In this document: piece by piece, positions 1 through 26,737 of the stretch
Numbering within the stretch: position 1 is the stretch's first letter
Layout of the letters: the number at the start of each line of letters is the position of its first letter
Assembly (NCBI GenBank): GCA_017546585.1
Contig: JAFYWC010000131.1
Coordinates: forward strand, 1 to 40,318
Source of the DNA: Bacteroidales bacterium
GTDB taxonomy: Bacteria > Bacteroidota > Bacteroidia > Bacteroidales > UBA932
Reading direction: 5' to 3'
DNA length: 40,318 nt
Made by a program: the position numbers and the translations under genes
The notes under the pieces: generated by a model
Told to the model about the DNA's origin: nothing
Databases searched by the model: none
What the model saw: the letters and a program-made list of their open reading frames with translations, nothing else

Positions 1-362
1 CATAATATCCATTGTATAACTTACAATAATCTGACTTTCAGTAAGCGTTCGCACAAAGGGTGCAACCCAGATATCCCAGTGCTAGATTTGACTATAGTTA
101 CTGTAAAGTTAAAGTTTACCGTAAGTCACATCTGCGATTTTATTATTGTTTAGGTTTTAGTATTTTATGGCTATAAATATAGGACTTTTTTATGAAAGTG
201 TATCAAATTACTAATCTTGGTAGACGGGTGTTTTCATTATCCATCTGCCACACTTTTACTGAAAAACCGTGGCAGATACCCACTTTGATGACGGTATCTG
301 CCACGGTTTCCTGTATATTTCGTGCCTGATGTTTGCGACGCGTTGGTCACACAGGGGTATAT
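1..362. other. Noncoding left flank
   Basis: No convincing gene is seen here. The stretch is AT-rich. It holds a 9+9 dyad at 98-124 (TTAC-t-GTAAA and TTTAC-c-GTAA around a 7-nt centre) and a strong inverted repeat at 264-309. Frames open to the left edge exist on both strands (+ to about 150, - from about 85) but are too short to call. Confidence 0.5.
264..309. terminator. Perfect 17-bp inverted repeat, likely bidirectional terminator
   Basis: AAACCGTGGCAGATACC (264-280) and its exact complement (293-309) flank a 12-nt loop. On the plus strand the stem is preceded by A residues and followed by TTTCCTGTATATTT, which suits termination in either direction. A partial direct repeat (ATCTGCCAC) lies just left at 243-251. 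No gene within the window obviously needs it, so it may end a gene beyond the left edge or be a relic of a mobile element. Confidence 0.55.
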
Positions 363-404
363 AAAACAAAATGAGACATCGTCGCTCACGCGAAGAGGCC
401 TCAT
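363..404 (-). terminator. Terminator of small-RNA copy 1
   Basis: The arms at 390-404 and 371-385 form a 15-position stem with mismatches at positions 8 and 11 and a GNRA loop (GTGA). A T-rich run follows on the minus strand. Copy 2 has the same fold, with mismatches at the same two positions and one compensatory change at stem position 12 (T-A here, C-G there). Confidence 0.7.
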
Positions 405-441
405 ACTAACCACATAATTAATAACACTAAAACTAATAACC
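366..441 (-). ncRNA. Small-RNA-like gene, copy 1 (about 75 nt)
   Basis: On the minus strand a promoter (-7 TACCTTTG at 447-454, -33 TTGC at 473-476) would start a transcript near 441. The next 44 nt (441-398) are identical to copy 2 at 26589-26632. They run into a stem-loop with a 15-position stem and GTGA tetraloop (371-404), then a T-rich tail (363-370 on the plus strand reads A-rich). A 4-codon ORF, ATG TGG TTA GTA TGA (MWLV, 415-401), ends exactly where the stem begins. No gene lies downstream on this strand within the window, which argues for an independent RNA and against an attenuator. The family is not recognised. Confidence 0.6.
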
Positions 442-446
442 GGGCG

Positions 447-505
447 CAAAGGTACTGCTTTTCAGCAAATTAGCAATACCTTGACAACAGAAATCCGACG
501 AACTG
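447..505 (-). promoter_or_regulatory. Conserved promoter plus upstream box, copy 1
   Basis: Reading the minus strand: CAGTTCGTCGG (505-495), 10 nt, TCAAGGTATTGC (484-473), 18 nt, TACCTTTG (454-447). Copy 2 has the same blocks at exactly the same spacing. The -33/-7 pair is a good Bacteroidetes promoter. The 11-bp block further upstream is a candidate activator or UP-like site. Confidence 0.6.
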
Positions 506-26080: not shown

Positions 26081-26545
26081 ATGAGCAACGTAGCATTAAA
26101 ACAGATCAAGTTTGGCGGAGTTGGTCTTGCGATTCCTGAAGTATGGAACGCAGTGACAGAGTCTTATACAGAGCCAGACGGCAGAGAGTGTGCAATGATT
26201 GAAATCACAGGCGAAGAAGGAGATCCAAGATCTATCGTCATCAGTTACGGACCTATGCCTGAAGGTTCAGACTCGTTCATCGAGGCAAGCGACACATATG
26301 AGGAGCTCATCGGCGAAAGCGGAGCTGCAGCTGAGGATGATCCTATCTGCGAATATGACTTCCTTGGAACTGTGGGATTCGGCTTTGAGGTACCTACAGA
26401 AGACAACCTTGCGTGCAATTTCATCTGTGCGGAAATCGGTTCAGAAGACAAGAGCCATCTCTTCACCATCCTTACTACAGCAGGTTCGTACGAGGACATC
26501 GACGACCTTCTCGATCTCGTAGAGGAAAATATCGTGTTTGAATAG
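26081..26545 (+). CDS. Acidic protein of unknown function
   Basis: A 154-aa protein not recognised. It is strongly acidic with no signal peptide, membrane segment or known motif. It opens MSNVALKQIKFGGVGLAIPE and seems to be one alpha/beta domain ending in acidic LDDIDD-type segments (EDIDDLLDLVEENIVFE). It follows the PHP gene by 26 nt without a clear promoter, so it may be cotranscribed. The terminator of small-RNA copy 2, on the opposite strand, ends about 10 nt after its stop, so a read-through transcript would be antisense to that RNA. Confidence 0.7.
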   Translation: MSNVALKQIKFGGVGLAIPEVWNAVTESYTEPDGRECAMIEITGEEGDPRSIVISYGPMPEGSDSFIEASDTYEELIGESGAAAEDDPICEYDFLGTVGFGFEVPTEDNLACNFICAEIGSEDKSHLFTILTTAGSYEDIDDLLDLVEENIVFE

Positions 26546-26554
26546 TGGTATATA

Positions 26555-26595
26555 CAAAAAAATGAGACTTCGCCGCTCTCGCGGGGACGCCTCAT
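26555..26595 (-). terminator. Terminator of small-RNA copy 2
   Basis: The stem arms 26581-26595 and 26562-26576 enclose a GAGA loop (minus strand), followed by TTTTTTTG. The stem is the same length as in copy 1, with mismatches at the same two positions and a compensating C-G for T-A change at stem position 12. Confidence 0.8.
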
Positions 26596-26672
26596 ACTAA
26601 CCACATAATTAATAACACTAAAACTAATAACCAATAAGTTGGGAGAGCTTCAGAACAACTCTCTGATCAACT
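26556..26672 (-). ncRNA. Small-RNA-like gene, copy 2 (about 117 nt)
   Basis: Same design as copy 1, on the minus strand. The promoter (-7 TACCTTTG at 26686-26679) leads to an extra 40-nt 5' part not present in copy 1, which can fold (GTTG..GAGAG..CTCTC..CAAC). Then comes the 44-nt core identical to copy 1 (26632-26589) and a GAGA-tetraloop hairpin ending in seven T. The MWLV mini-ORF (26606-26592) is unchanged. No gene on this strand lies downstream; the next is the 3' end of the opposite-strand unknown gene. Confidence 0.6.
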
Positions 26673-26678
26673 CGGGTG

Positions 26679-26737
26679 CAAAGGTACTGCTTTTTTTAAC
26701 ACCTGCAACACCCTGAAATGCGTTTCCCGACGAACTG
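26679..26737 (-). promoter_or_regulatory. Conserved promoter plus upstream box, copy 2
   Basis: Reading the minus strand: CAGTTCGTCGG (26737-26727), 10 nt, TCAGGGTGTTGC (26716-26705), 18 nt, TACCTTTG (26686-26679). Spacing is identical to copy 1 although the sequence between the blocks differs. Confidence 0.6.

Follow-up and report, generated by a model that had tools for sequence, protein, structure and literature searches.

The window, the whole 40,318-nt stretch of DNA analyzed here, contains two copies of a short element on the minus strand, copy 1 at 363 to 505 and copy 2 at approximately 26555 to 26737 (Table 1). The blocks described for these copies in an earlier note, which was made from the letters alone, are present in both and in the same order. 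In each copy, the 11-bp upstream box is located 40 nt from TACCTTTG, and a −33-type element, which reads TATTG in copy 1 and TGTTG in copy 2, is located 19 nt before TACCTTTG. The 44-nt core is identical between the two copies. Both terminators have a 15+4+15 layout with GNRA loops (GTGA and GAGA in copies 1 and 2, respectively); their arms differ in sequence, the mismatches at positions 8 and 11 are kept in both, and one compensatory pair, T-A to C-G, is found at position 12.

Table 1. Coordinates of the features of the two window copies
Feature	Copy	Position	Strand	Basis or remark
Upstream box CAGTTCGTCGG, putative activator site	1	495..505	-	Sequence
−33-type element TATTG	1	474..478	-	19 nt before −7 element
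−7 element TACCTTTG	1	447..454	-	TAnnTTTG type
Predicted transcript, ~80 nt, without 5' hairpin	1	362..442	-	Start predicted from promoter, end from U-run
36-nt core, predicted antisense seed	1	406..441	-	Conservation and SusC-leader complementarity
Terminator hairpin, GTGA loop	1	371..404	-	U-run 362-370
Upstream box CAGTTCGTCGG	2	26727..26737	-	Sequence
−33-type element TGTTG	2	26706..26710	-	19 nt before −7 element
−7 element TACCTTTG	2	26679..26686	-	Sequence
Predicted transcript, ~120 nt, with 5' hairpin	2	26555..26674	-	Predicted boundaries
5' hairpin, GUUCUGA loop	2	26633..26673	-	Pairing by eye; hairpin class in relatives
36-nt core, predicted antisense seed	2	26597..26632	-	Sequence, conservation
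Terminator hairpin, GAGA loop	2	26562..26595	-	U-run 26555-26561

Two claims of the earlier note hold in part. It placed the core at the predicted start site, which applies to copy 1 only, because approximately 41 nt with a hairpin-like sequence (26633 to 26673) intervene between promoter and core in copy 2. It also stated that no gene lies downstream of either copy. For copy 1, we found no open reading frame (ORF) of ≥80 amino acids before position 605; at copy 2, a plus-strand ORF (26081 to 26545) converges on the element, and there is no credible gene in the same direction. A minus-strand frame with a TTG start (26245 to 26634) that overlaps the copy 2 core is antisense to this ORF and was not taken for a gene. 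The string ATG TGG TTA within the core could be read as the beginning of a short leader peptide or attenuator (ATGTGGTTA...). We regard this as extremely unlikely, because, by eye, the frame after this string differs between members, with stops that vary or a frame that runs on, and because neither window copy is followed by a credible gene that such a leader could serve. In minimum free energy (MFE) folds, the core of copy 1 partly pairs with itself, and the core of a slightly truncated copy 2 pairs with the 5' part, the 5' hairpin not being shown.

Promoters

The Bacteroidetes promoter consensus is given as TTTG/TAnnTTTG in PMC7366714. Compared to this consensus, the copy 1 element TATTG is one letter off, and exact TTTG is absent from the −33 element of both window copies. 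Judged by their sequence, the promoters of the window copies are of the Bacteroidetes σABfr type (TATTG, 19 nt, and TACCTTTG, with TGTTG in copy 2). Of 144 family members, 128, among them both window copies, have TAnnTTTG, the canonical σABfr motif, no more than 85 nt upstream. The remaining 16 members comprise 8 that are linked to tRNA-Cys, 6 with the string TTGGCACG...TTG, and 2 with a degenerate −7 box. The six carriers of TTGGCACG...TTG (L098, L100, L124, L160, L166, and L185) lack a σABfr −7 box, and their string resembles the σ54 promoter consensus. A TTCGTCG-type upstream box was present in 16 of 149 rows, of which 3 are re-fetched loci of the own genome, and its distance of 40 nt from TACCTTTG was seen in the four loci checked by eye (L001, L003, L006, and L079).

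Distribution

Using the 143 bases of copy 1 in a BLAST search of the whole genome, we recovered copy 2 at an E value of 1.1e-24 and a third copy (G000:C161:39014-39156) that is 94% identical over all 143 bases (E value, 2.6e-59). Based on these E values, the likeness between copies 1 and 2 is not due to chance. By sequence, the third copy has the core at its predicted 5' end, as in copy 1. The same query matched 34 of 61 genomes, namely 32 of 37 from the genus, including the own genome, and 2 of 24 from other families. A usable core is present in 30 of the 37 genus genomes, as G005 has a truncated core and G025 only the promoter, beside a stretch read as N. No BLAST match was found in G007, G010, G020, G032, and G035 among the 37 genus genomes; G032 is 91% complete and the other four are ≤80% complete. 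The own genome has three copies. Of the 31 other genus genomes with a match, 27 gave a single one, G009, G012, and G015 gave two each, and G021 gave three; draft assemblies (MAGs) may conceal further copies. Three matches were found in G061 using the covariance model of the family.

The matches in the two other-family genomes are not sRNA genes. In G056, the promoter part matches before another sequence. In G039, the match is the leader of a gene for a ribosome hibernation factor and resembles the reverse complement of the core; this leader, before a Ribosomal_S30AE gene (L308, G039:C52), resembles it closely, and no hibernation factor leader of this kind was found by eye in six Cryptobacteroides genomes. 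A regular expression for the starts of hibernation factors gave no match.

The exact 35-nt core is present in at least 120 stretches in GTDB genomes. Among the matches listed (80 titles), 8 rows name Candidatus Cryptobacteroides species, with seven species names, and the other records are unplaced Bacteroidales, Bacteroidia, or Rikenellaceae. The listed records are MAGs or assemblies of uncultured isolates, and many were obtained from rumen or hindgut samples of goats, deer, yak, buffalo, horses, and other animals. From these titles, we infer that the host genus of the window is Candidatus Cryptobacteroides, a group of uncultured bacteria of the gut.

Conservation and architecture of the family

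In an alignment of 28 members, which were found by core similarity so that conserved ones are favored, 34 core columns out of 36 show no variation and the remaining two are conserved at ≥90%, while the terminator varies. Across the genus, the promoter spacer, the 5' hairpin, and the terminator arms vary, with pairing largely kept. Sorting 152 exact-core occurrences, some places being counted twice, by regular expression gave 11 without a 5' hairpin, 9 behind tRNA-Cys, and 4 that are cut, the remaining 128 being assigned to the hairpin class by default. Members with the core at their 5' end are in the minority.

Of 123 distinct upstream sequences, 107 show pairing of the outer 5' stem, and several types of pair occur at each position; this count is biased because the stems were picked by pairing. 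The commonest folded 5' loop is GUUCU (51 of the 123 sequences). In alignment A3, two of the six pairs of the 5' stem changed on both sides, and 12 of 500 shuffles scored as high, which indicates modest covariation. The 14 stem positions that were counted in 133 distinct terminators all have more than one standard pair type, although these counts come from individual MFE folds and are, therefore, biased to pairing; a T4 run follows in 125 of the 133. A covariance model with an RNAalifold structure (R1) was dropped because it placed pairs in the invariant core, and model R2 has only the outer 5' stem as structure.

These patterns, a nearly invariant core and arms that vary with pairing kept, agree with the proposal of the earlier note of a genuine RNA gene family under selection, and we consider it very probable that the element is a true small-RNA gene conserved across Cryptobacteroides. 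A functionless repeat or fragment of a mobile element could likewise yield one to three matches per genome and copies in different surroundings, as is the case for copies 1 and 2 in the window. This reading has next to nothing to commend it, given that promoter, core, and terminator are kept together with paired changes in the arms and that the BLAST matches are spread over most genus genomes, mostly as a single match in each (32 of 37 genomes and 27 of 31, as above).

Nine loci have the core and terminator directly after tRNA-Cys(GCA) (L009, L080, L091, L094, L108, L114, L144, L176, and L178). Using ARAGORN, the tRNA was confirmed in five of six loci scanned, the sixth (L080) being cut. The tRNA-Cys-linked sRNA is possibly released as the 3' trailer of the tRNA. 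Both the 5' hairpin and the tRNA-Cys that replaces it in some species are probably interchangeable 5' modules for protection or processing.

Two further features of the 3' end stand by themselves. A C-C mismatch at terminator position 11 is kept in 28 of 29 terminators with the 15+4+15 layout (e.g., 26562 to 26595), the exception being window copy 1 with T-C. A few members (L011, L012, L016, L118, and L142) lack a U-run after the first 3' hairpin; three of them, L011, L012, and L016, have another hairpin downstream that does carry one, giving a longer 3' end.

Comparison with known RNA families

In line with the earlier note, in which the element was not recognized as a known family, no Rfam model reached its gathering score in the window, and lax Rfam scans of the element gave only matches at chance level. 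The best-scoring Rfam model on a relative, L023, is BTnc201 (RF04177), which was rejected as chance-level (20.9 bits at a threshold of 105; E value, 0.09 to 0.12; many mismatched pairs). On the same relative, RF04319 (FopS) scored 20.2 bits, compared to its gathering threshold of 56, and its cut-off was reached nowhere in 31 genus genomes. GibS (RF04182) stayed below its gathering score and had no match to the element in these scans. We found no paper on this sRNA family in the literature on Bacteroidales sRNAs and SusC control. If the function proposed below is right, Rfam would gain a well-defined family that is not yet among its models.

In PMC11697453, FopS is described as paralogous sRNAs (RF04319) of Bacteroides thetaiotaomicron with 12 to 15 copies per genome that are bound by RbpB, that repress SusC translation in tests, and whose predicted targets are enriched in SusC-like transporters. 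The element shares with FopS, as far as its sequence tells, a short sRNA, a σABfr promoter, a conserved and putatively single-stranded seed, and an intrinsic terminator, as well as complementarity of the seed to SusC translation initiation regions, which for the element is a computed property. The element differs from FopS in having a different core, which is matched to the SusC leaders of its own genus and not to those of FopS hosts; in being present in 1 to 3 rather than 12 to 15 copies per genome; and in that its seed is often preceded by a 5' hairpin or tRNA-Cys. The FopS-like order, seed and then terminator, is that of copy 1; the commoner form has the hairpin first, and the MFE folds partly pair the core. 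One of 31 genus genomes yielded a protein with an RRM. This does not distinguish the genus genomes from FopS hosts, as the FopS-bearing genomes G319, G277, and G199 also lack RRM.

GibS, a trans-acting Bacteroides sRNA, has a conserved single-stranded 5' seed that pairs with translation initiation regions (PMC7366714). The element is likewise predicted to be trans-acting with a conserved seed directed at initiation regions, whereas GibS is 145 nt long and has other targets, a PM2 promoter, and a second seed, R2.

A further case of RNA control of a susC-type gene is DonS of Bacteroides fragilis, an antisense RNA within one polysaccharide locus; the predicted targets of the element, by contrast, are many unlinked genes.

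Predicted pairing of the core with SusC leaders

To calculate duplex energies between the core and mRNA leaders, SusC genes were identified by their TIGR04056 HMM score and not by their leader, gene starts were taken as the first ATG of the longest frame, and mRNA structure was ignored. We note that the SusC genes within the genus are related and not independent. In the own genome, the median duplex energy was −15.7 kcal/mol for 23 SusC leaders, which range from −8.6 to −23.1, and −12.7 kcal/mol for 86 others (Mann-Whitney p = 1.4e-4); the result for the SusC leaders was equaled or bettered by 1 of 100 shuffled cores, and that for the control leaders by 61 of 100. From four other genus genomes, 30 SusC leaders were used out of 82 matches; for these, no shuffled core did as well (0 of 40 and 0 of 200), and five of the 30 were weaker than −13 kcal/mol.

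The signal depends on position. For the region from −40 to −1, we obtained a z score of −2.47 for the 23 own-genome leaders, with 1 of 300 shuffled cores as good, and of −4.07 (0 of 300) for the 30 leaders from the four other genus genomes. For 27 SusC leaders from FopS-bearing genera, z was +0.37 with 198 of 300 shuffled cores as good, and for 30 SusC leaders from five other families, it was −1.21 (33 of 300). The reversed core gave a signal in none of the four leader sets. In the wider window from −60 to +20, the own-genome signal was weaker (z = −1.68 and −1.76; 8 of 200 each). When the 53 leaders were scanned in nine windows from −160 to +120, −40 to 0 stood out (z = −3.46; 0 of 60), while two windows that overlap it were marginal (4 of 60 and 2 of 60) and the other six were null.

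The signal also depends on the class of gene. Among the 573 genes called in 800 kb of genome G016, the 8 SusC genes had a z score of −4.27 (0 of 60), and for 298 other genes, 51 of 60 shuffles were as good, such that ordinary genes carry no such signal. The result was marginal for genes with a hydrophobic N-terminus (n = 190; 4 of 60), and for lipoprotein-like genes (n = 77), 15 of 60 shuffles were as good. Considering all 573 genes, strong sites were mildly enriched (16 compared to 8.3 at −20 kcal/mol, a number reached in 3 of 40 shuffles), and SusC genes ranked between 10 and 139 by predicted pairing.

As a positive control, the FopS seed (f67 genome) gave a z score of −3.05 (1 of 200) on the SusC leaders of FopS-bearing genomes and of −1.57 to −1.93 on the other three leader sets. 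In the same comparison, the Cryptobacteroides core gave z scores of −4.85 for the four genus genomes, −1.76 for the own genome, and +0.76 for FopS hosts. Based on these scores, each sRNA fits the leaders of its own hosts best, the FopS seed less exclusively so. The complementarity of the core to SusC leaders is specific with respect to position, gene class, and genus.

A base-pairing sRNA that acts mainly on other mRNAs, such as those for outer-membrane lipoproteins or single metabolic genes, with the match to SusC reflecting leader composition, appears unlikely to us. Such a target range would fit the leaders of lipoproteins or secreted proteins that are among the strongest single predicted sites (C2_146096, C1_219894, and C1_346610), the marginal result with hydrophobic N-terminus genes, and the fact that SusC leaders are richer in A than the controls (0.406 compared to 0.314). 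However, dinucleotide-shuffled and reversed cores give no such signal, and lipoprotein-like genes show little as a group.

Relationship to FopS

The covariance model of the family, which the earlier note had called for, was run over 294 Bacteroidales genomes and matched 8, two from the genus and six outside it. Of the six outside matches, three exceed the Rfam gathering score for FopS, and two of these three belong to a single genus; Rfam does not identify the remaining three as FopS. The own genome also has a separate FopS-like RNA, L033 (G000:C101:17383-17460, minus strand), with a promoter-like box and a terminator, which scored 32.8 bits with RF04319 and is below the cut-off. Nine of 31 genus genomes have weak matches of this kind to RF04319 (E value of 0.01 or better), all of them below the cut-off. 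L033 alone was read as an sRNA gene, as the FopS-like loci L344 to L346 failed the regular expression for promoter plus motif. On SusC leaders, the L033 seed gave z scores of −0.56 in the own genome, −1.6 in the other genus genomes, and −2.29 in FopS hosts.

That the element is a true FopS member that diverged by common descent is a serious possibility, which we nevertheless lean against and which would not exclude the function proposed below. The family-only model matched three above-threshold FopS and aligned them through core and terminator, and the ungapped similarity of the core to the FopS consensus was reached by 40 and 56 of 5,000 shuffles. These two comparisons are, however, in different registers, the terminator contributes to the model matches, and those matches come mainly from one genus, with as many outside matches that are not FopS. 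Moreover, RF04319 scores far below its threshold on L023, and the presence of the higher-scoring L033 in the same genome argues against the element being the FopS orthologue. Because RF04319 rejects the element and L033 is separate, we describe the element as probably working like FopS but do not file it as FopS.

Proposed function

We consider it likely that the element encodes a trans-acting antisense sRNA that pairs with susC leaders and represses the importers. According to this proposal, an sRNA of approximately 80 to 120 nt would be transcribed from its own promoter, end at an intrinsic terminator, and expose the AU-rich 36-nt core, which would pair with the 5' leaders of susC mRNAs within approximately 40 nt before the start codon. 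Pairing would block ribosome loading and the synthesis of SusC, a TonB-dependent glycan importer, presumably when importers are not wanted. The direction of regulation is probably repression, by analogy with FopS.

The near-invariance of the core goes beyond what a seed would need, and GUUCU is the commonest folded loop; both would suit a 6S- or CsrB-like decoy in which the core or the GUUCU loop binds and sequesters a protein. Nevertheless, such a decoy is improbable, more so than a pairing RNA with other targets, since the hairpin is absent from copy 1 and other members, the core is single and unstructured with no repeated motif, and the specificity for SusC leaders would be left unexplained.

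Starting from an antisense sRNA against susC leaders, a broader reading, which we hold tentatively at slightly short of an even chance, is that of a genus-wide silencer of glycan import, in which a frozen 36-nt antisense has co-evolved with many susC leaders as one regulon and is combined with a modular 5' cap (hairpin, tRNA-Cys, or none) and promoter (σABfr-like or σ54-like). With 5' caps and promoters being modular, species could rewire when the same seed is made. If correct, this would be a genus-wide RNA controller of glycan importers; together with FopS, it would suggest that each of the different clades of Bacteroidales has an sRNA with a seed that follows the SusC leaders of that clade, and the co-evolution of seed and regulon would be open to direct testing.

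Additional observations

At one contig end (L020), two copies point toward each other and have one hairpin in common, an arrangement that may be an assembly artifact. In the window, a long near-perfect inverted repeat (264 to 309), located past the 3' end of copy 1, would form a strong hairpin and is possibly a terminator or a small repeat element.
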